The translations under genes were made by a program, and so were the position numbers. Below are positions 3,117 to 27,690 of a stretch of 52,602 nt of DNA, piece after piece. How positions within the stretch are numbered: the stretch's first letter is position 1; each line of letters starts with the position of its first letter. The notes under the pieces were generated by a model. It did not search any database. It was not told where the DNA came from and saw only the letters and a list, made by a program, of their open reading frames with translations. Origin of the DNA: Candidatus Zhuqueibacterota bacterium (GTDB lineage: Bacteria > Zhuqueibacterota > QNDG01 > JABMRT01); NCBI GenBank assembly GCA_013202295.1, contig JABMRT010000244.1, forward strand, positions 1-52,602, in the 5' to 3' direction.

Positions 3117-4307
3117 TTAAAGCCCTCTTCCATAATAGGGAGCGCCAGCTTTATCAACGCTCACCTTAAACAAATCATCAACCATGTCTTCGGGACTGCC
3201 ATAGCGCGTGACATAAAGACTATTATCATTGTCCCACGTCATCCAGATAGAACTCGGAAAAAGGATACCCTTAAACAATGGTCCGATCAACTTACCATCG
3301 GTGTCGAACATCAACACCGTGTCACTGTGATCCGTACCTACATAGAGAATGCCATCTGCATCAAATGTGATGCAGAATGCTTCAGCACCTGTATAACCGG
3401 ATGTGGACCAATCCAGGAATAATTCTTTATCAGCAAGAGTACCCGCATCATCCAAGATTTCACTGCGCCATACATTCGATTCATCATCAAGCACATAAAG
3501 CGCATCATCAAACACACGTATACAAACAATACTCAAATCCTCGCAATTACCTACCACATAACTCGTATCGCCGACAATCACACCAATACCGGTTCCATCG
3601 CCACCAGCGAATATGTTTCCGTTTTCATCAAAATCAATATAACTCATGTTTTTCGGATAGGCGGCATATTCGACAGTCGTATCGTTCTGCGCAGAATCAA
3701 TCATGTAGAGAAGTGCGTGATCTTTCTTTTTCATAAACAAATAGCCATTGGGACCAATCTTTATATCTGAAGTTGAACCCCGGTACGTCTGCTGAGTAAT
3801 TTCAACAATATATTGATCGGGTAAAATTTTAAAAACTCTTTTACGAACCAGCATCCACATATTCCCCTCTGTATCAAAATCCATGAGGAATACCCCACCC
3901 GGAGTTACAAATTTCCCATAATTACTCACTACTGCAGTAATCTCATATCCCGAATGGGCTGCCAGAGCCACTGCGCCATCCACCTGAACAAGGATTGCTA
4001 TCGAATCACCGGAAATATTGGGCCGATACACAATAATCTCTGTGGGTGTCATGGATTGGATTTCACTCGGCACATCATCAAAGTATACTTTGGTGCTATC
4101 CACCTTGAATCCTTGCCCAATAATTTGGATGACAGAGGCACCCCCGGCACTCTCCGGTGGATCAATTGCCGTAATAGACGGCTGTACACCGAGATCAGCA
4201 TCTGCATTCCATATTGCGGCAGGACCATCATATTCACAACCCGTTATCCCAAAAAGGAGGGCTACTATGATGAGGCAGATAGTTAAATAAAGATGTTGTA
4301 TTTTCAT
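3117..4307 (-). CDS. Lipoprotein with IPT/TIG domain and beta-propeller
   Basis: A 396-aa exported lipoprotein: signal peptide with lipobox ITGC, acylated C24. Residues about 42-125 match an IPT/TIG immunoglobulin-like domain (PSITAIDPPESAGGASVIQI...GQGF...VYFDDVPSEI). The remainder has repeated blades such as FDTEGNMWML, IGPNGYLFM, FDENGNIFAGG, FDADGILYVGT and WDNDNSLYVTR, the NHL/SMP-30-like propeller pattern. It is the last of five genes spaced 36-43 bp apart behind the TonB receptor. Such proteins are often surface-exposed and bind ligands, so a role beside the receptor is likely but unproven. ATG with AAGGAG site. Confidence 0.8.
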   Translation of the reverse strand: MKIQHLYLTICLIIVALLFGITGCEYDGPAAIWNADADLGVQPSITAIDPPESAGGASVIQIIGQGFKVDSTKVYFDDVPSEIQSMTPTEIIVYRPNISGDSIAILVQVDGAVALAAHSGYEITAVVSNYGKFVTPGGVFLMDFDTEGNMWMLVRKRVFKILPDQYIVEITQQTYRGSTSDIKIGPNGYLFMKKKDHALLYMIDSAQNDTTVEYAAYPKNMSYIDFDENGNIFAGGDGTGIGVIVGDTSYVVGNCEDLSIVCIRVFDDALYVLDDESNVWRSEILDDAGTLADKELFLDWSTSGYTGAEAFCITFDADGILYVGTDHSDTVLMFDTDGKLIGPLFKGILFPSSIWMTWDNDNSLYVTRYGSPEDMVDDLFKVSVDKAGAPYYGRGL

Positions 4308-4348: not shown

Positions 4349-5350
4349 TTACATCGAGATCCGGGCTGTCACACGTTGCACGTTTTCAAATACACCAAAG
4401 GGTGTATATGCATAATCAAAAGCCACACCCATGACCGATACACCAAATCCGAACGCAGCGCCATATTCATCCTGACCTGAAATATAACCAGCTCGAAGAT
4501 TCAACATATTCATAAATTGATAGCACACACCCAAATTGAGATACTCCGCTTTTGAACGGGGATGGACCGCATCAATGCACACGAGCACCGATTGATTTTC
4601 AGGCTTCTCGTTCAGCAGATCCAGCACATCCATGGAGACACCGATCTTGAATGTTAAAGGAAGCTGAAAGCTCTCTTCTTCAAATTTAAATTCGCCTGAG
4701 AAATTCCGTACACTCATACCAAACGCAATGCCCTTAAAGCCGGTTTGATAAACCGTGCCGAAATCATAGGCATATGTGGATGCCACATTCTTTTTCACAG
4801 TGCCTGATGCCCAGGTGTGCTCAGAAGGAATCACGCTTTCACCCAGGGATTGAGCAACAATCTTGACCTGGCCACCCACGGCAAATTTATCATTCAGCAA
4901 CTTGCCGTATCCAATGCCGAGTGCAAGCGCGCTGGGAGAGAACTTATCCGTATCCAGATACCCCAACGAATTGTTCCAGACCATCGTGCCCTGCAACTCT
5001 CCATAATCGATCCACATGGCGCTGAGACCAAATGTGCCCCATGCACCATTCTCTGGCTTATATGCCAATGTGGCTGCGTAATGTTTAATGTCTGCAATCC
5101 AGTTATTCGCACTGAACGTCGCATCAAAACGCTTATCAAGTCGAGCCAGTCCAGCCGGGTTGTAGAACATCGCGTTGGATCCGCCTTCAATGGTTGTATA
5201 GGCTTCACCCATCCCAGTTGCCCCAGCGTCGGTTCCGACGCTTAGAAACTGGAATCCGGATTGTGCCAGTTTTTCGGCGGCAAAAACCGATGGACAACAA
5301 ATCCATATAGCCGCCAATATGATTAAAAGTATTGTTTTTCCTTTCAACAT
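4349..5350 (-). CDS. PorV/PorQ-family outer-membrane protein
   Basis: A 333-aa outer-membrane beta-barrel of the PorV/PorQ (FadL-like) family. After a signal peptide (cleavage near VFA-AEK) come the family hallmarks GFQFLSVGTDAGATGMGEAYTT cut short as FLxVGxDAxAxGMG, and NAMFYNPAGLA near residues 58-68. Alternating hydrophobic strands follow, with an aromatic C-terminal strand. In Bacteroidota PorV shuttles type IX secretion cargo at the outer membrane; paralogues in FCB genomes often sit in receptor or export operons, as here. Whether this copy serves T9SS or acts as a channel for the neighbouring receptor cannot be told from sequence. Start ATG with a GGAGGATGA site. Confidence 0.85.
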   Translation of the reverse strand: MLKGKTILLIILAAIWICCPSVFAAEKLAQSGFQFLSVGTDAGATGMGEAYTTIEGGSNAMFYNPAGLARLDKRFDATFSANNWIADIKHYAATLAYKPENGAWGTFGLSAMWIDYGELQGTMVWNNSLGYLDTDKFSPSALALGIGYGKLLNDKFAVGGQVKIVAQSLGESVIPSEHTWASGTVKKNVASTYAYDFGTVYQTGFKGIAFGMSVRNFSGEFKFEEESFQLPLTFKIGVSMDVLDLLNEKPENQSVLVCIDAVHPRSKAEYLNLGVCYQFMNMLNLRAGYISGQDEYGAAFGFGVSVMGVAFDYAYTPFGVFENVQRVTARISM

Positions 5351-5390: not shown

Positions 5391-6185
5391 TTACTCACCT
5401 ATAGAAATAACCATTGGAAAATGCAGCTTGATTGTTTGCCCCTGTGCTTCAATCTGCATAAGAACCTTCTCCGGTGGCAGAACATATTCGAACCGGGTTT
5501 TCTTGAATTTGCAATCTGAAATCGCTTGCAGATTTTGTTCTTCGCTTGATTTCACAATAAGATCACCAGCCGCATTTTCTGTGATTTCCCAAATTTGCAT
5601 ATTTACATAATCATCAAAATAGAACGCAAACCGACCATCAGTACTATTTGAATTATCAAATATGAAACATCCTTTACCATCCAGTATTTGGATAACCAAA
5701 TGTGAATCCGCATCGGTGTTGCTTAGCAATTCGGGCACACCGGATAAATCATCCAGGGAAACCAGTGTATCAAGAGCCATGGGCTCTCCAAGATCACGAC
5801 TGGCCAAAATATCTTTGAATACTTCAACCGATTCAAGTTCTGTACTCTGTGTGATTGTATCAATATCAGTCGAGTCGAGATCTGTGTATGTGGTATCATA
5901 GACGATTTTCTCAACATCAATCATAGTAAAGGAAGTATCCAGGATCCAGCCTCTCTCAATCAACTCTGGAAGATGTGAATCCAGAGAATCACCAAATACG
6001 AGACTATCCGCTAAAAAATAACAGACACTCCCATAATCCAGATCCATGACTTGATAGATTTTCTTATCATATGTATCAAGTAAAATAATTTTTTCAGGGA
6101 TGAGTTTGTCGCATCCAATCATTCCGGCCAGAATAAGTACCGGCAGGATGCATGTCATCCATTTTTGTATAGAGTGATTGCGCAT
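5391..6185 (-). CDS. Hypothetical lipoprotein in the uptake operon
   Basis: A 264-aa lipoprotein with lipobox GMIGC (acylated C25). The mature region is acidic and beta-rich with several Thr/Asp runs (DTTYTDLDSTDIDTIT). I recognise no family. It is placed between the secreted FN3 protein and the PorV-like protein with short gaps (36 and 40 bp), so it is co-transcribed with the receptor. SusD is the usual lipoprotein partner of SusC receptors, but this protein is half SusD's length and lacks its TPR-rich look; it may play an analogous part (inference). ATG with AAGGAG. Confidence 0.75.
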   Translation of the reverse strand: MRNHSIQKWMTCILPVLILAGMIGCDKLIPEKIILLDTYDKKIYQVMDLDYGSVCYFLADSLVFGDSLDSHLPELIERGWILDTSFTMIDVEKIVYDTTYTDLDSTDIDTITQSTELESVEVFKDILASRDLGEPMALDTLVSLDDLSGVPELLSNTDADSHLVIQILDGKGCFIFDNSNSTDGRFAFYFDDYVNMQIWEITENAAGDLIVKSSEEQNLQAISDCKFKKTRFEYVLPPEKVLMQIEAQGQTIKLHFPMVISIGE

Positions 6186-8442: not shown

Positions 8443-11400
8443 TTAATTCAAATCAAAGGAGGTCCGAATACCAAAGAAGACCATCCGTGGATTCAGGAAA
8501 TTAAAAGACGATTGATTCGGCATATCGATATACGCCTTGTCATCGAGAATGGTATCCATAATTGAATCCGGTACGTGTGTCCATTCCCCTTCGTTGTAGG
8601 TCCAATAATCCTGATCCGTTTTATCATAGTAAATCACCGATTCATCAGGCAGAGAGACCCAGCTGTGGTTTCCAACCTGTTCAATCGGTTGGAAGTCTAT
8701 ATCATCATCCCTGAAATCACCGACTTGATCCTCTCCCGGAATATTGCTATAGGCATCATTCTCGGGCAAGTGCAAGGATTCCATATAATACCGTTCATCA
8801 TCGGGATTGTAGAAACTTGCCCCGGAAAGTCGTCGAGTGTTGAGCAAATTGCTGATATCAGCAAAGAATGAAACCTTCGCCCGTTTAAATGCAAACGTCT
8901 TGTTTAAGCGTAATGTGAAGTTGTAATAGTCACAGATTGTGACATTCCATGCAACAGCCCGAATTGCCTTCGGGTTCCAGGTGTACCATCCACCATCGCT
9001 CCAATTCGCGATCACAGTGGCAGACCAATTGCCGAGTAGATGATCGTCCATGAATGACGGACCAAAATTGGACGGTGTATAAAGCGACACATGCGCCCGC
9101 GCAAACGGTTGTGGAATGGGACGCTCCTGATACAGATTCTGTGTTTCCCTGTCATATTGCGCCTGTTCCGAAGGATCTTCATAAACAATGGCACTACCGA
9201 AATGTCCTGCAGTCTTGACTTGGTAGGTATAACTCATGAAAGCGGACCACCATTTTGAAGGCTGTTTTCTCAATGTGAGTTCAAATCCGCGAATATCTTC
9301 ATAACTGCGATTATCGGCCTGAAAGTAGTTCATGGAAGCATCTGCACTGATATATTGGGAAAAGGCTTGCTGATCACCGATATCGTGATAGAAGGCAGCC
9401 ACCTGAAGCAAATAGGTGTTCATGATGCCCCAGTCAAAACCCAGCTCGTAAGAAACTGTTTTTGCCAAAATCAGGTTGGGATCCCCGATATTGTTCACTC
9501 GTCCAGAGGACCCGCGACCAATCCGGAAGATCTGTTCGTACGTGGGAAGCTGTTTGAAATGGCCGTAATTGAAGAACAGTTTTGAGGTTTCTGTGATGGG
9601 GTGCGAAATGCCGAGCCGCGGACTGAAAGACCACTGCCATTTCGAATTAGTCATCGAGTAGGATGCAGTGGAATCATAATCCGCAGAGTAATAATCGCGA
9701 TAGAATGGATCTTGTCCAAGAATCCAGTCTGTATTGGAATTTGTGAAATCCAGTCGCAAACCGGCATTCATGATAAAACCATAAGCTTCCAGTTTGTCTT
9801 GAGCGTATATCGCACCTCGTATGGGTGTATCTTTTTGTTTCACCCAACTTGAAGCACCCTGTGAAAAATTGACCTCACCATACTGAAGGTCAAGTGTGTT
9901 CACCACAAACTCAAAACCGGCTTTAACCATATTGCTGTGATCAACCTGGCTGGTTAGATCTGCTTTCAATGTGGTGGCAGAGATCTTGCTGAAATCACGT
10001 GCCGTACTGGTATGCCCTCCGAAAAACATGCCGTCATTGCCAGATTCAATATCTTGATCAAATCCGAATGGCGCCGGATCGGCCCAGTACCCGCCGTAAT
10101 AGGATCCCTCTTCTTCAGGCCACCAGCCCTGATACGGTAAAGGTTCAGTCGGAGAAATAACCATGGTCAATTCACCAGTCCGTTGTTCAATCGGCTGGGT
10201 ATTGTAGGTTCGGTTAATATGTTCCAGGCTGACTTCATAAAAAGCCTTCGCACTCAGAACTCGTGTGAGTTTTGCTGCAAGTGAGAGATAACTGACTTCA
10301 GCAGGACAGTACCAGGAATCAGAAAAAATACGTCCTGGGCGCGTCTCATGTGTTACTCTCGCAATTTCAATCGGTGACCGCACATAATCTGTCGGATTCC
10401 AGAACTGAGCAGCACTCAGGCCCCAATCTGTGCCATAAAAATTATAATCCGTGGCATTGATCGCTACATTATAACTTTTACCCGTCATCATACTCAGTTT
10501 GAGTTTCGTAGCTTTATCAATATCACTCGTGATATTTAACGACCAGTCATAGTCTTTGTAATCATCGCGTGACAGAGGAATCATCAACATTTCACGCTGC
10601 GTTCTAAAACTCGTAAAGAATCGGGCATCACCCAATTGTTTACTCAAGAATGGAACCGGACCACCAAAACCGGCATCAATATTATAATCTGCCTGATCTG
10701 TGACAGCCGTTTTGCGATGCCGCCATTCCCACAATCGCTGGGCACCTTCCGGTGTCAAATCATTGTTTGGAATTCCATCTTCAAGTAGGCGTTGAGATAC
10801 CGTATTCCATCCATCAAATCGTGGATACTGCCTCTCTAAATAAGAATCATCGGCCCACGCTGTCTCCGTGCCGGTCCAGCAAACTGCATCGTTCAGATAA
10901 GGACGCATCCACATGGAATTGGCATCAAAAGGAGAAATACCGAAATGTTTGGCCTGCGGTGGTCCGTATTTTATGGTGGCAGATCCTGAATAACTTTCCC
11001 GGCTGCCTTCCTTGGTCACAATATTCACCACGCCGGAACGAACCTGACCATACTCAGCGTTAAATCCGCCACGTTCAATCGAAATTTCCTGAACAGCACT
11101 CAGTGCAATTCCTGTGATCGGTTTGTTGTTACGTGGATCCCGAAGTGTGATACCATCGACCTGAAAAAGGGCCTCATCGGCAGTACCGCCACGGATGATC
11201 AATCCATCATCCACACCAGCTTGTAAGGACGCCACTTCTTCAACCGATGTAATCGGCAGTTCAAGAGCCTCATCCCCTGAGACAGAAGCCACACTTGTGG
11301 CCACATCCTCTTTCACGATTTTTCGTTCGGCTGAAATCGTAACCGCTTCACCCTCAAGCACTTCTGATTCAAGTTGAAAATCAAGACGGGCAGTTTGATC

Positions 11401-11691
11401 GATGCGAACTCTCACTCCCTCGAGGATAATACGCGTATATCCGATCATCGTGACATGAACAACATAGGTTCCGGGAGGTACACCAAGAATCGTATAATTT
11501 CCTTGCATGTCCGTAGCTGCACCCATTGTGGTACCTGTTATAACCACATTGACTCCAGGCATCGGATTGCCCGTTTCCATTTCTGTGATGTTTCCTGCTA
11601 TCTTACCGGTAGTACTGGCCAATAGCGGATTTAAGACACACAGAATAACCAGGATGGATAGTACCCCACTTATCCATTGATGCATCTTCAT
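8443..11691 (-). CDS. TonB-dependent receptor with CarboxypepD_reg-like N-domain
   Basis: A 1082-aa outer-membrane transporter. After the signal peptide (…NPLLAS) residues about 29-112 are a carboxypeptidase-regulatory-like domain (GKIAGNITEMETGNPMPGVNV...GNYTILGVPPGTYVV). The plug follows (about 125-235; IIRGGTADEALFQVDGITLRD, ISIERGGFNAEYGQVRSGVVNI), then a 22-strand-type barrel with many aromatic strands, ending in TSFDLN. Such receptors import large substrates using TonB/ExbBD energy. It is 36 bp downstream of a LacI-type regulator, which favours a carbohydrate or nucleoside substrate (inference from regulator family). It resembles SusC in domain layout, but no SusD lies beside it. GGAGGAGGG ribosome site. 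Confidence 0.92.
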   Translation of the reverse strand: MKMHQWISGVLSILVILCVLNPLLASTTGKIAGNITEMETGNPMPGVNVVITGTTMGAATDMQGNYTILGVPPGTYVVHVTMIGYTRIILEGVRVRIDQTARLDFQLESEVLEGEAVTISAERKIVKEDVATSVASVSGDEALELPITSVEEVASLQAGVDDGLIIRGGTADEALFQVDGITLRDPRNNKPITGIALSAVQEISIERGGFNAEYGQVRSGVVNIVTKEGSRESYSGSATIKYGPPQAKHFGISPFDANSMWMRPYLNDAVCWTGTETAWADDSYLERQYPRFDGWNTVSQRLLEDGIPNNDLTPEGAQRLWEWRHRKTAVTDQADYNIDAGFGGPVPFLSKQLGDARFFTSFRTQREMLMIPLSRDDYKDYDWSLNITSDIDKATKLKLSMMTGKSYNVAINATDYNFYGTDWGLSAAQFWNPTDYVRSPIEIARVTHETRPGRIFSDSWYCPAEVSYLSLAAKLTRVLSAKAFYEVSLEHINRTYNTQPIEQRTGELTMVISPTEPLPYQGWWPEEEGSYYGGYWADPAPFGFDQDIESGNDGMFFGGHTSTARDFSKISATTLKADLTSQVDHSNMVKAGFEFVVNTLDLQYGEVNFSQGASSWVKQKDTPIRGAIYAQDKLEAYGFIMNAGLRLDFTNSNTDWILGQDPFYRDYYSADYDSTASYSMTNSKWQWSFSPRLGISHPITETSKLFFNYGHFKQLPTYEQIFRIGRGSSGRVNNIGDPNLILAKTVSYELGFDWGIMNTYLLQVAAFYHDIGDQQAFSQYISADASMNYFQADNRSYEDIRGFELTLRKQPSKWWSAFMSYTYQVKTAGHFGSAIVYEDPSEQAQYDRETQNLYQERPIPQPFARAHVSLYTPSNFGPSFMDDHLLGNWSATVIANWSDGGWYTWNPKAIRAVAWNVTICDYYNFTLRLNKTFAFKRAKVSFFADISNLLNTRRLSGASFYNPDDERYYMESLHLPENDAYSNIPGEDQVGDFRDDDIDFQPIEQVGNHSWVSLPDESVIYYDKTDQDYWTYNEGEWTHVPDSIMDTILDDKAYIDMPNQSSFNFLNPRMVFFGIRTSFDLN

Positions 11692-11727: not shown

Positions 11728-12738
11728 TTATGTGGATTGTCGAATTATTAATTCTGTTTTTAAAATTTCCCTGCGAGGATGCATGTCATTTCCATCATGT
11801 TCAATCTGTTCAAGCAACAACTCGGTAGACTGACGACCAATTTCATAGGCGGGCTGTCGGACTGTGGTTAAAGGCGGATCAACCAGTGAGGCGATAGGAT
11901 TGTCACTGAAACCGATCAGCGCAACGTCATCGGGTATTCGCAATCCCTTAGTACGTAGATGGCTATACGCACCAATTGCCACGGGATCGTCGACACAAAA
12001 AACAGCATCTGGTCTCACAGGTGCCTGCTCAAGCAGTCTGGCCATGCCCTCAGTGCCGTGCTCTTCGTTTAAACCGATGTGGATGACCATTCGATCATCA
12101 ATCGGTAAACCATGCTTTTTCAGAGCCGCCTTGTACCCTTTATAACGGTCCTGACTGATATTTAAGAAATCCGGTCCGCCAAGATGGGCAATGTTTCGAT
12201 ATCCCTTTTTTATGAGATATTCGACAGCCTCGAACGCGCCTTCGAAATCGTTCACAACCACCTTCGAAGCCTCAACCATTTCACACACCCGATCAAAAAA
12301 GACGAGAGGGATTCCGCGTTTGATAAGCTGGTTAAAGTGCGCGCAACCCTCTGTGGATTGAGAGATCGAAATCAGCAATCCGGCCACACGCTGCGAAATC
12401 AAGGCTTTGATATTCAGCTCTTCCCGTTTATAATCATCATTAGATTGGCAAATCATCACAGTGTATCCTGCGTCATAGGCAATATCCGTGATACCGGCCA
12501 TGATTTGCGCAAAAAATACATGTTTCACCTGGGGTACAACCACACCAATAATGTTCGATCGTTTGCTTTGAAGACTCTGAGCAATCGAATTGGGATGATA
12601 ATCAAGGGCGTCTGCTGTTTCTTGAACTCGCCGCTTGGTATCTTTGCTGATATCCGGATGATCATTCAAAGCACGGGATATAGTTGACGGAGAAAGCCCG
12701 AGTTTCTTAGCAATATCTTTAATCGTTGATTGAGCCAT
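11728..12738 (-). CDS. LacI-family transcriptional regulator
   Basis: A 336-aa LacI/GalR repressor. Residues about 2-50 hold the helix-turn-helix (STIKDIAKKLGLSPSTISRAL) and hinge helix (NSIAQSLQSKRSN); the rest is a periplasmic-binding-protein-like effector domain (IIGVVVPQ...FFAQIMAGI..., GYRNIAHLGG, PDAVFCVDDPVAIGAY, IGFSDNPIASLVDPPLTTVRQP). The start is ATG at 12738; an upstream in-frame TTG (12747) would add three residues only. It is the first gene of the operon with the TonB receptor. Directly upstream are a TTGACA/TAAATA promoter and two ACGT-centred operator sites, so it very likely represses itself and the uptake genes, released by a small sugar-like ligand (inference). Confidence 0.93.
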   Translation of the reverse strand: MAQSTIKDIAKKLGLSPSTISRALNDHPDISKDTKRRVQETADALDYHPNSIAQSLQSKRSNIIGVVVPQVKHVFFAQIMAGITDIAYDAGYTVMICQSNDDYKREELNIKALISQRVAGLLISISQSTEGCAHFNQLIKRGIPLVFFDRVCEMVEASKVVVNDFEGAFEAVEYLIKKGYRNIAHLGGPDFLNISQDRYKGYKAALKKHGLPIDDRMVIHIGLNEEHGTEGMARLLEQAPVRPDAVFCVDDPVAIGAYSHLRTKGLRIPDDVALIGFSDNPIASLVDPPLTTVRQPAYEIGRQSTELLLEQIEHDGNDMHPRREILKTELIIRQST

Positions 12739-12784
12739 TAAAATCAACCACTTATAACTATTTTGAGAATTGGACTGAAAGACC

Positions 12785-12808
12785 GGAAACGTTTGTGCAA
12801 ACGTTTCC
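12785..12808. promoter_or_regulatory. Double LacI-type operator
   Basis: Perfect inverted repeat GGAAACGTTTG - TG - CAAACGTTTCC. Each arm contains AAACGTTT, itself the palindromic core of LacI/PurR/CcpA-type operators, so two sites lie 12 bp apart centre to centre. It is at about +5 to +28 of the predicted start of the lacI transcript, a blocking position. Confidence 0.85.
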
Positions 12809-12819
12809 GAAACGCTAGA

Positions 12820-12848
12820 TATTTACGAAAAATTTTAACGGATGTCAA
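12820..12848 (-). promoter_or_regulatory. Sigma-70 promoter of the lacI-TonB operon
   Basis: On the minus strand TTGACA (12843-12848), a 17-bp spacer and TAAATA (12820-12825). The double operator begins just downstream, and the ATG of the regulator is about 75 nt from the predicted transcription start. Confidence 0.75.
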
Positions 12849-15226: not shown

Positions 15227-18200
15227 TTATCTGAGCAGCACCATTTTCTTTGTGGATCTAAAACCATCCATCTCGATCTGATAAATGTAGACGCCGGAAG
15301 AGAGAGCTCTGCCATCCAGAATTGCGGAATGAGAACCTGCATCTTGAATTGTATCCACAAGGCGAGTCACTTCCTGTCCCAGGGAATTATAAACCGTGAG
15401 TCGGACATGGCTCTGACGCCCCACATCAAAATGAATCTGGGTCACAGGATTAAATGGATTCGGATAATTTGAGTACAATTTGAATCCATGCGTTTGGATA
15501 GAAGGTGAAACACCGGATTGTGGATTCTCATTGGCCAGCACACGAATACCTTGCCAGTCTGAAAGATAGATCGCATGATTCGCCACAGCCACATCCGAAG
15601 TGAAATGGCTCTCATAATAATAAGTCTGTGTTCCGGACCAGGCATCGAATCCATACAGATCACTTCGATTGATTGTATAGACATTTCCATTCACGATGAA
15701 TGGCCGATCCACTCGCAATGTATCAAACACATGTTGCCACAGAAGATCACCGGAAAGCCGGTTGAATGTAAGCAGTTCACCGGGCTGTTCATTATTCCCG
15801 ATGATGGACAAACAAACCACTGAATCTGAGACTGCCAGATTGTTTCCTGACCAGCTGATGAGCCCATTATTTTCAATATACGCGGACCAGCGTCTGGAAC
15901 CATCACCAATCCGGCGGGCCATGAGACTGTCTTCACGAAGTACATAGATATAATCGTCATCAATAGCGATACTGTTATCATGTCCCGGATTGGATACGCG
16001 CCATTTCGATTCACCATCGCGTTTATCCAGGCAAAGCACGGAGTCATCAATCACCCAGTATGTATTGCGGCCATCCACCGCCGGCGTTTTTTGCGAACTG
16101 AATCCGCTGTTTCGACTAGACCAAACCGTGGAACCGTCTTTCTGATCCAGACAATACAGACTGTCGTCGCAGATGTAGACATACTCACCTTCGAGAATGG
16201 GATGCTTCACGTGAAGCGATCCGAACGGCCGCATCCATCGGACTGCGCCGGTCCAGCGATCGAGCGCGTATAGACCATCCCCCCCCTGCCCACCACAAAG
16301 GACGAGTGAGTCATTCACGGCCGGCTGACAACTCAGTGCGCCCCCGCTGCCCGGAATCTCGAAGGACCAGAGTACGGAATCCTGATCGAGGTCATACCCG
16401 TAAATCGTAATCGGATCTCCCCCCACACCGGCAATGAGCGTGGATCCATGCACTGAAAAATCCACTTGATTGTCCCAAGGAGTAATGGTCGTATCATATT
16501 CGAAAGGCGGCGCCAGTTGATTCTCATCCTCAGCCCAGCGATTGCGTTTCGGCCCCCCATCGAGCATGGGCCAGCTTAGGTTCGTTGTAGTGTCTGGTTC
16601 AGACGCAAGACGGTAATCCATAAGCGGGAGCGCTGCGTCCCACAAGGCCTCCCGCGGAATTTCGCCTGCATTTCCATAATAGGTAGAATAAAGATTGCCC
16701 GGATCTTTAATCCAAAATGCCATACCGATCGTTTCACCGGGCAGGGCCTGAAGCGCACTCTCCTCCAGATCGATCGCGATCTCGTATTGTACATATCCAT
16801 TCGTTAAAGTAATAGCGGATTCCACTCCTTCCGCGCCAATCATGGCTCCCAATCCAATATTCGGGTAATCACCATAGAAGGGGGTGAAATACGCGCCCGA
16901 AGGAACGACATCAAACCGCCCCTCCCCGATGAATCCGCTCGGATCCCATGTATTATCATTGTCTTCATCAAAGAGCATTCCGAAAGCATTGGTATTGTTC
17001 AACGTGGTATCGTTCAAATCTTGAACACCAAAATACAATGTGTATAAATCATTTTTAACATGCGCAATGACCGGTTTTTCGTGATATTGATAACCAATCA
17101 CAAAGGCGGGGCAATCTGCCCACTCATCCTCTTCAACCAAGCCATCAATTGTTGGCTTGTTTTGGCTCCAGAAACCGCCCACATCAACCGGCCAGCTGCC
17201 CACTCTTGCGGATACAGTTTCTGATCGCTTTGTGATATCAGGATTGTCACAATCCATCTTATAATAATAAGTCTCACCCGGTGTCACATCGGTATCAATC
17301 CAATCATGCATGAGAGCCGGATAGGGACGATCTGCCGTGTTGACCGTGGCAACCAGATCAAAATATCCTGTCGGATCTGTTCCGCGATAAATGTAATAGG
17401 TCCGGTGCTCAGTATCACCATAAATCGGATTCCAGGCAATTGGAACATGATTATTGAACCAACTCCCGGCTTGCACATCCATGGGCATACGTGGTCCGAG
17501 ATACTCACCATAAATATCAAAGTCCCCATCGCGGTTATCCTGCCAGATACACACAGCGATGCCACGCCCGTCTGCGGCCACAGCAGGGAAGAGCTGACCT
17601 CCTGCATCATCTGTGACCAGAACCGGTAAATCGACCGGCTGGCCCTCTGTATCAAATTCACGCGCATACACATTCATATCCGTCTCATTCATGCTCCACA
17701 CAACCATGTAGCTGCTATCCGGTATGGCAGTAATATCCGGATAATAACGGGCGCCCCATACCTCGGTACTGTTGACAAAAAACTGATCTCTCACAATCCC
17801 GCCCTGTGCGTCAAAACATTTACCAAAAACCTGGGGAAATCCGCCATCGTACCCAAACATCCAAACAGTCATAAAAGATCCGTCAGGCTGCATGGCCACG
17901 TGCTGCCAGAGTATGCTTGCATCTTGTGAAGGATGAGAATTCACCTTAAATGGCGGTTCGACCTCCTGGCCGGTAGTGTCAAACAGTGCGGCATATAGAT
18001 TCATGTATCCTGATTCATCCTGCTGAAGCCAGGTGATTACGAAATCACCGTTATCAGCCATGGCCGCATCAGGCCAGAAACACAGCTCATCCGGATCAGA
18101 TACGTCGATGACATTAGAACCACATCGCACACCATTCGAAGCAAATAATTGGAAGGCCACTTCCGGCAGGCTGTCTGCTCTTGTATCTAGCCAGCATACC

Positions 18201-18673
18201 ACATAATCGCCCTGAGCATTCATCGCGATTTTCGGATACCGCTGCGACATCACACCCGCATCATCATTGACACGAAATGCCGCGTGCTTGGCCTGCCCGT
18301 TCGGCTCAAACATGCGCGCGTAAATATCATAATGCCCGTCCCGTTTGTCATCCCAGACAAACGTCATATGACCGAACTGGTTGATGGCCACATTCGCCGA
18401 TGCTTGCGTGGAATCTGATGCTGCATGGACTCGAAAATTAACACCCTGAGGAAGACCCGCCCGGTTGAAGAGCTGCGCGTAAATATTGGAATTTCCATTG
18501 CGATTATCTTCCCAGCACATCACACTCATGCCGGAAGCAGTCATGGCAATCGCGGGATACACCTGATTCTCTGTTCCGGAGTCATCATTGATCAGCTCGC
18601 CCTGGGCGTACAATCCAAATGTGCTTACCAGGATGAGGAGTATCATCATTTTTCGGATGCGCTGGATCACCAT
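15227..18673 (-). CDS. T9SS-sorted surface protein with propeller repeats and CBM9-like domain
   Basis: A 1148-aa secreted protein. Signal peptide MVIQRIRKMMILLILVSTFG. About 20-400: repeated blades with MCWEDNRNGNSNIYAQLF, FVWDDKRDGHYDIYARMF, CIWQDNRDGDFDIYGEYL, a propeller of short Asp-rich units. An FN3-like stretch follows, then a CBM9/DOMON-like domain (PTIDGLVEEDEWADCPAF onward, about 500-690). A PQQ-type propeller (VLWSFEIPGSG, LYALDRWTGAVRW, LYCLDQKDGSTVW) fills about 730-1050. The last 81 residues are a textbook type A sorting domain (SNYPNPFNPVTQI ... SSGVYIYQIEMDG ... KKMVLLR). The start is ATG at 18673 with a GAGGAGGAG site; an upstream TTG extension to 18703 is unsupported. Exact ligand unknown. 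Confidence 0.85.
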   Translation of the reverse strand: MVIQRIRKMMILLILVSTFGLYAQGELINDDSGTENQVYPAIAMTASGMSVMCWEDNRNGNSNIYAQLFNRAGLPQGVNFRVHAASDSTQASANVAINQFGHMTFVWDDKRDGHYDIYARMFEPNGQAKHAAFRVNDDAGVMSQRYPKIAMNAQGDYVVCWLDTRADSLPEVAFQLFASNGVRCGSNVIDVSDPDELCFWPDAAMADNGDFVITWLQQDESGYMNLYAALFDTTGQEVEPPFKVNSHPSQDASILWQHVAMQPDGSFMTVWMFGYDGGFPQVFGKCFDAQGGIVRDQFFVNSTEVWGARYYPDITAIPDSSYMVVWSMNETDMNVYAREFDTEGQPVDLPVLVTDDAGGQLFPAVAADGRGIAVCIWQDNRDGDFDIYGEYLGPRMPMDVQAGSWFNNHVPIAWNPIYGDTEHRTYYIYRGTDPTGYFDLVATVNTADRPYPALMHDWIDTDVTPGETYYYKMDCDNPDITKRSETVSARVGSWPVDVGGFWSQNKPTIDGLVEEDEWADCPAFVIGYQYHEKPVIAHVKNDLYTLYFGVQDLNDTTLNNTNAFGMLFDEDNDNTWDPSGFIGEGRFDVVPSGAYFTPFYGDYPNIGLGAMIGAEGVESAITLTNGYVQYEIAIDLEESALQALPGETIGMAFWIKDPGNLYSTYYGNAGEIPREALWDAALPLMDYRLASEPDTTTNLSWPMLDGGPKRNRWAEDENQLAPPFEYDTTITPWDNQVDFSVHGSTLIAGVGGDPITIYGYDLDQDSVLWSFEIPGSGGALSCQPAVNDSLVLCGGQGGDGLYALDRWTGAVRWMRPFGSLHVKHPILEGEYVYICDDSLYCLDQKDGSTVWSSRNSGFSSQKTPAVDGRNTYWVIDDSVLCLDKRDGESKWRVSNPGHDNSIAIDDDYIYVLREDSLMARRIGDGSRRWSAYIENNGLISWSGNNLAVSDSVVCLSIIGNNEQPGELLTFNRLSGDLLWQHVFDTLRVDRPFIVNGNVYTINRSDLYGFDAWSGTQTYYYESHFTSDVAVANHAIYLSDWQGIRVLANENPQSGVSPSIQTHGFKLYSNYPNPFNPVTQIHFDVGRQSHVRLTVYNSLGQEVTRLVDTIQDAGSHSAILDGRALSSGVYIYQIEMDGFRSTKKMVLLR

Positions 18674-18721
18674 AATCTCCTCCTCAACATAACATTCACT
18701 CAAGTACGATCAATTTTCTAT

Positions 18722-18793: not shown

Positions 18794-19330
18794 TCAACAA
18801 AGCGAACAATCAACCTTTATAATCGAATGATCATCATTCACATAATTTCGAGCCGAGCTGTAACGCCAATGTTCCTGTTCATCCACATATCCTCGTGCTA
18901 CAGGATTTTTGTGTATATACTCAATTTTCTGCGATAACATCTCCGCATTCTGAATCAACTCAGGATGCATCCCTTCCTGCCAAACCTGATATTGACTTTC
19001 CTTCTTATGCCGCTTTTTGAAAAAAGTCAACTGATTCAGAAGCCAAGATTTATTATCCGCTTCAAGTTGTTCAATGATCCGTTTTGCTGTATACTTTCTC
19101 AAGGATGCCATTGTGGATGATAAGTCTGGAGAGGATGCAATCAGATGAAAATGATTGTCCAGAATTACATAGGCATATAGTTTAAAGGCTTTACTATCGA
19201 TGCAGAACTTGAGAGTCTCAACAACAATATCAAAGTAAGGCTGACTCGTAAACACAGGAAGCCATTCACTAACCGTTGACGTGAGAAAATGAACACCGTC
19301 TTGCTCAATTATTTTGTATCGATCTCTCAT
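18794..19330 (-). CDS. REP-associated tyrosine transposase (RAYT, Y1/IS200-like)
   Basis: A 178-aa Y1 HUH nuclease. The HUH pair is H60/H62 in LDNHFHLIASS and the catalytic tyrosine is Y80 in RKYTAKRI. The C-terminal IEYIHKNPVARGYV...WRYSSARNY is the RAYT (TnpA-REP) signature. These single-copy enzymes cut and move REP-type hairpins rather than whole insertion sequences. The start chosen is ATG at 19330. The open frame runs up to 19396, but the added residues are encoded by the flanking palindrome, so that start is unlikely. No good ribosome site precedes 19330, in line with low expression of such genes. Confidence 0.9.
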   Translation of the reverse strand: MRDRYKIIEQDGVHFLTSTVSEWLPVFTSQPYFDIVVETLKFCIDSKAFKLYAYVILDNHFHLIASSPDLSSTMASLRKYTAKRIIEQLEADNKSWLLNQLTFFKKRHKKESQYQVWQEGMHPELIQNAEMLSQKIEYIHKNPVARGYVDEQEHWRYSSARNYVNDDHSIIKVDCSLC

Positions 19331-19368
19331 AGGGGATAATTTTAAAAACAAAGTTTTTATAACAATGA

Positions 19369-19394
19369 GGTTCCCAAACAGGAGTTTGGGAACC
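19369..19394. repeat. Right palindrome of the RAYT element
   Basis: GGTTCCCAAAC - AGGA - GTTTGGGAACC: perfect 11-bp arms with a 4-nt loop. Its loop is the complement of the left copy's loop, so the two copies are inverted with respect to each other. Confidence 0.88.
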
Positions 19395-19438
19395 ATATTC
19401 TAACGATGTCAACCATGGCTAATTGAGAGATCAGGAGA

Positions 19439-27661: not shown

Positions 27662-27690
27662 AATATAAACGTTTTGCCCGACTTTGTCAA
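27662..27690 (-). promoter_or_regulatory. Sigma-70 promoter of the efp-acc-gcv operon
   Basis: On the minus strand TTGACA (27685-27690), exactly 17 bp, TATATT (27662-27667). The predicted leader to the efp ATG is about 40 nt. Confidence 0.82.

Follow-up and report, generated by a model that had tools for sequence, protein, structure and literature searches.

A LacI-family gene and its putative operator

The window, 52.6 kb of a Candidatus Zhuqueibacterota contig from a 5.1-Mb draft genome in 303 contigs, carries on its minus strand a gene for a LacI-family repressor, followed by five genes on the same strand at gaps of 36–43 bp (Table 1). The regulator passes the Pfam cut-offs for its two domains (LacI, 51.8 bits; Peripla_BP_3, 135.5 bits) and reaches no equivalog cut-off in NCBIfam; the closest proteins of known structure are CcpA, a ribose repressor and PurR. 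Upstream of this operon-like row, the minus strand also encodes a large protein (15227–18703) that combines a beta-propeller with a Por_Secre_tail sorting signal for type IX secretion, a PorV-family gene being present in the same genome, and a 200-aa open frame (18794–19396) that looks, by eye, like a REP-associated (Y1-type) transposase.

Table 1. Features of the lacI locus, in positions of the window
Feature	Position	Strand	Basis
-35 box TTGACA	12843..12848	-	Perfect match
Weak -10 box TAAATA	12820..12825	-	17 bp from -35 box; 3/6 matches to TATAAT
Degenerate third core AACGCT	12811..12816	.	11 bp from core 12799–12806; significance uncertain
Putative two-centre LacI operator, perfect 12-2-12 inverted repeat	12784..12809	.	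Repeat search and shuffles
Promoter-proximal operator core AAACGTTT	12799..12806	.	Sequence
Second operator core AAACGTTT	12787..12794	.	Centre 12 bp from first; pitch kept in homologs
LacI-family repressor gene, HPDI subfamily (SPSTISRALNDHPDIS)	11728..12738	-	Pfam LacI and Peripla_BP domains; ortholog alignment (best start, ATG at 12738; stop ends at 11728)
SusC-like TonB-dependent receptor, carboxypeptidase-regulatory-like domain	8443..11691	-	Family match; same neighbour in related loci
Conserved receptor partner protein, 725 aa	6222..8399	-	No Pfam or NCBIfam match
Predicted protein, 264 aa, probably same operon	5391..6185	-	ORF; no family match
PorV/PorQ-family outer-membrane protein	4349..5350	-	NCBIfam NF033709 above cut-off
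Predicted exported TIG-domain protein, end of row	3117..4307	-	ORF and family search

Between the promoter and the start codon of lacI lies a perfect inverted repeat, CGGAAACGTTTG-TG-CAAACGTTTCCG. The original prediction had described it as an 11-2-11 repeat behind a consensus promoter; on re-reading the window sequence, the repeat is indeed perfect, with arms one base longer, and the promoter retains its -35 box and 17-bp spacer, with a -10 box that falls well short of consensus. From these boxes the repeat is predicted to span about +4 to +29, in fair agreement with the +5 to +28 first proposed. Each arm contains its own core, as had been claimed. The two cores are identical, and both are canonical LacI-type operator centres, that is, even palindromes around a central CG (ANCGNT). 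Their centres stand 12 bp apart, near the single helical turn originally suggested, although at about 1.14 turns they are rotated by roughly 50–70 degrees. The 24-bp pattern, allowing up to three mismatches, occurs once in the 52.6 kb, against a shuffle expectation of 0.00. A further lone AAACGTTT core lies at 27667–27674, where about one is expected by chance.

A 12-bp pitch that follows one LacI subfamily

We collected LacI homologs from relatives, from the phylum, from named genomes, from 20 genomes reached through those loci and from Bacteroidota; these sets overlap, and counts from them are not to be summed. Two ANCGNT cores stand exactly 12 bp apart in 24 of 81 close-homolog promoters, from KSB1, Ignavibacteria/Bacteroidota and Desulfobacterota, compared with a mean of 0.2 and a maximum of 2 in shuffles. 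Together with the shuffles of the window pattern, these controls rule out a chance origin of the repeat and its pitch. The pitch is strict: neighbouring distances in the 81 promoters are at background level, with cores 13 bp apart once, 22 and 32 bp apart never, and 24 bp apart in four promoters, which carry three-unit arrays. When 41 non-redundant promoters were centred on their best core, a second core fell at +12 in 17 and at -12 in 8, and only rarely at 11 or 13. Arrays reach four units at the same pitch. Of 51 12-bp arrays, 47 have TTGACA, matched at five or more of its six positions, no more than 45 bp upstream, most commonly 34–37 bp before the first CG, and the typical homolog layout is TTGACA, about 17 bp, TANNNT and then TGCAAACGTTTGCGGGAACGTTTGCA.

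What the orthologs keep is the pitch of the two cores, not the palindrome. Conservation of the palindrome in orthologous upstream regions had been set out in advance as one result on which the original prediction would stand or fall, and it is not observed: most orthologs carry direct-repeat-like units, AACGTTTGCGGG AACGTTTGCA, and several relatives have a single canonical core, so that the palindrome as such is unsupported. The scan of these regions for twin cores, proposed at the same time, instead recovered a strongly conserved pair spaced by 12 bp. The closest member of the family (68% identity) has AAACGTTTGCGGAAACGTTTGCGACGCGTTTCC as its site, with units at 12 bp and the overall palindrome absent. 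Neomarinimicrobiota homologs mostly have one core, and the Calditrichota homologs L111 and L153 keep the pitch with a relaxed core, ACGTGT, that the strict ANCGNT count excludes.

The 12-bp pitch follows the PDI-type LacI subfamily and not other LacI genes. The mark of this subfamily, SRAL/SKAL..HPDI, follows the recognition helix. In a second sample of 139 promoters, 12-bp arrays were found in 37 of the 98 with a PDI-like signature and in 0 of the 41 without. Among 134 LacI promoters from the phylum that were picked by Pfam score alone, two carried arrays, one of four units and one of three, and these belonged to the sole KPDI-variant proteins (2/2, versus 0/132 without the signature). An alternative signature pattern, applied to the tree set, gave 38/112 versus 2/36, and the exact signature fractions throughout are soft because the pattern was picked after the first cases had been seen and was altered between analyses. 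The idea that a 12-bp habit is common to all LacI genes of the phylum was rejected, given its presence in 2 of 134 promoters.

Within the subfamily, half-sites vary with the protein. Proteins with an SKALRDHPDI helix have other half-sites, such as ACTTAACCGATAACTTTAACGGTTAAGT, at an unchanged pitch, and NKPDI proteins have a CG every 6 bp. The NKPDI-type promoters of L253 and of L027/L270 (G043:C127) extend this 6-bp spacing across 30–42 bp, for example ACCGGTTACGGAAACGGTAACGGAAACGTTTACGGTACCGGT. A fewest-changes count on a protein tree built with FastTree puts the changes of array state at 22 or more, some of the losses being homologs within operons that have no promoter of their own; this many changes suggests that the 12-bp pitch was probably regained rather than inherited once.

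Occupancy of the overlapping centres

The original prediction of a LacI-type autoregulatory region before the first gene fits the two LacI cores found ahead of a row headed by lacI. We give roughly even weight to a specific form of this reading, in which the site is an autoregulatory operator of an HPDI-subfamily LacI and its two overlapping centres are bound cooperatively by adjacent dimers. The centres would overlap at their fixed pitch over the probable transcription start; dimers on the site would block RNA polymerase on the lacI–TonB-receptor operon, and an inducer would free them from the operator. Blocking of the promoter is the simplest reading by analogy with lac-type repression because the operator directly follows the -10 box. 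At 12 bp both sites would share an inner groove segment, and adjacent dimers would be bound together and touching, as on overlapping CodY sites. Because contact between dimers would demand a fixed pitch, the strictness with which the pitch is kept leads us to prefer simultaneous, cooperative binding, with moderate confidence. The 'cooperative, tight repression' first proposed is thus plausible, although not shown by spacing alone.

Two observations count against a pair of docked dimers. First, many homologs have one core only. Second, the half-sites are unequal. Among 30 arrays of class A, to which the window belongs, three of the four half-sites conform to TTTGC, and the fourth is interrupted by a G, present in 25; both inner halves are at full consensus in none of the 30. 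The arrays were oriented with the better inner half-site on the left; this step makes some asymmetry inevitable but would not produce a conserved G. The window itself is atypical, with near-consensus inner halves (TTTGC/TTTGT) and TTTCC outer halves, and therefore its site is a perfect palindrome. Because one of four half-sites is systematically off-consensus in most class-A arrays, it is not obvious that another dimer could dock there fully.

A less probable alternative is that the two registers are mutually exclusive: a single dimer would occupy one centre or the other, and the doubled site would raise the local chance of binding at most about twofold. Known LacI structures do not accommodate two fully docked dimers, an argument made for spacings of about 13 bp (PMC4052901) that also weighs against paired dimers in the window, since canonically docked dimers at 12 bp would both need the same inner groove segment; the single-core operators of homologs would mean that one dimer is enough there. 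Mutually exclusive binding does not require an exact pitch, however, yet 12 bp far exceeds 11 and 13, and a second register weakened by the off-consensus G of 25/30 class-A arrays would add little.

A more tentative reading that retains simultaneous binding is that HPDI-type dimers form a staggered chain on DNA that advances 12 bp with each dimer; n dimers would use n+1 good half-sites, and added dimers would be held by one headpiece and a dimer–dimer contact. A headless LacI paralog of the same genome might supply one-headed heterodimers.

We consider it unlikely that the arrays arose by slippage alone, through tandem duplication of a 12-bp unit whose pitch is then kept by descent and mutation bias and not by function. 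Within three-unit arrays, adjacent units are identical and species-specific, as in L150 (TGCGGTAGCGTT twice) and L122 (TGCGGTATCGTT twice), which favours duplication. Against it, the pitch is common to operator classes whose half-sites differ and is missing from the other LacI subfamilies of those genomes, and two-unit arrays keep their inner bases from phylum to phylum.

The remaining two alternatives are both highly improbable. A single dimer on one wide operator, centred at the midpoint of the 26-bp palindrome, would suit the perfect repeat in the window, but that midpoint, TTTGTGCAAA, lacks the usual ANCGNT centre, and the overall dyad is absent from the direct-repeat-like and single-core sites of relatives. 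Two different regulators, such as the local LacI and a paralog, could each take one centre in a genome with eight LacI-type HTH matches, where the paralog L054 is preceded by its own 12-bp pair; the window cores are identical, however, and the half-sites of paralog promoters differ from them.

Inducer, regulon and known systems

In Ignavibacteria, Neomarinimicrobiota and Desulfobacterota, homologs of the window repressor often adjoin galactokinase (galK), galT, a sodium-solute symporter and galactose mutarotase. These neighbours point to galactose or a galactoside as a possible inducer. This is only a fair guess because the neighbours in KSB1 are receptor genes and not galactose enzymes: in KSB1-type loci the homolog adjoins the TonB receptor and the 725-aa partner, and Leloir-pathway genes are not found beside the window lacI.

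The palindrome, originally recommended as a search word for the rest of the regulon, matched only itself: a whole-genome search with AAACGTTTGNNCAAACGTTT at up to two mismatches returned no second full site. A looser word, AAACGTTTNNNNAAACGTTT, gave 4 matches per strand in the window's genome versus 9 for the reversed control. Because both words fail, we claim no regulon for this genome. Further pairs of cores at 12 bp, with the form CTTAAACGTTTTCGNNAACGTTTAAG, precede a TonB-receptor gene and exported-protein genes (G000:C82:1266-1285 (L421); L419, L424, L425 and L428 in G001) and probably belong to a paralogous regulator; G001 has 11 loose matches per strand, and its reversed control 3.

Several LacI paralogs depart from the usual form. 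L052 (G000:C138:15432-16427) has an in-frame TGA within the match and two ATCGAT cores 13 bp apart near its start, and is possibly a decayed gene. Headless paralogs, L070 (G000:C82:47396-48226), L074 (G007:C16:80863-81684) and L018 (G042:C38:4139-4960), are intact frames of about 280 aa in which the HTH is missing and the protein begins with the sugar-binding core; they come from three families of the phylum and share 53–74% mutual identity. All three have a divergent neighbour resembling a winged-helix regulator with a membrane segment, and in G007 a galactokinase gene comes next.

Each centre of the window site is an ordinary LacI operator, and overlap between such operators is already published. 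PurR/CcpA-type operators have the same kind of core with a central CG but stand alone, whereas the window centres repeat at 12 bp within one operator. Overlapping LacI-family sites at about 13 bp were reported before 110 operons and could not be squared with known structures (Ravcheev et al. 2014, PMC4052901); they were described as conserved and preferred in some orthologous groups, with the binding mode unexplained (PMC4052901). The GntR sites before E. coli gntKU are one example and place two overlapping LacI-type centres ahead of a sugar operon, and we measured 13 bp between those of gntK. The window site is a close variant of this published arrangement: the 2014 set, which covers 7 phyla with KSB1 absent, peaks at 13 bp, whereas the window's subfamily keeps 12 bp and builds arrays of up to four units.

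CodY offers a likeness from an unrelated family. Its dimers bind overlapping sites, and their cooperativity is lost on insertion of 1–2 bp (PMC10415144); like the window's subfamily, with its 12 bp in 24/81 promoters, it keeps a strict pitch between overlapping sites, and it has cross-dimer contacts and three-dimer arrays (PMC10415144). CodY differs in being a global nutrient regulator with a 15-nt motif and a 6-nt overlap (9-bp pitch), and simultaneous binding is proven for CodY and inferred for the window site.

In open-licence papers we found no 12-bp LacI operators and no LacI regulons that include Ignavibacterium. As far as these papers show, it is new that the pitch is held strictly at 12 bp, that three or four units are strung together at this pitch, and that the trait is tied to a single LacI subfamily in several phyla. 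The record of overlapping LacI operators goes back to 2014, and existing structures cannot explain them; the natural series, running from one unit to two, three and four with varied half-sites, provides ready pairs of DNA and protein that could settle whether two LacI dimers share a groove. The 12-bp pitch is also a sharper rule for locating this subfamily's sites in phyla that are poorly known.
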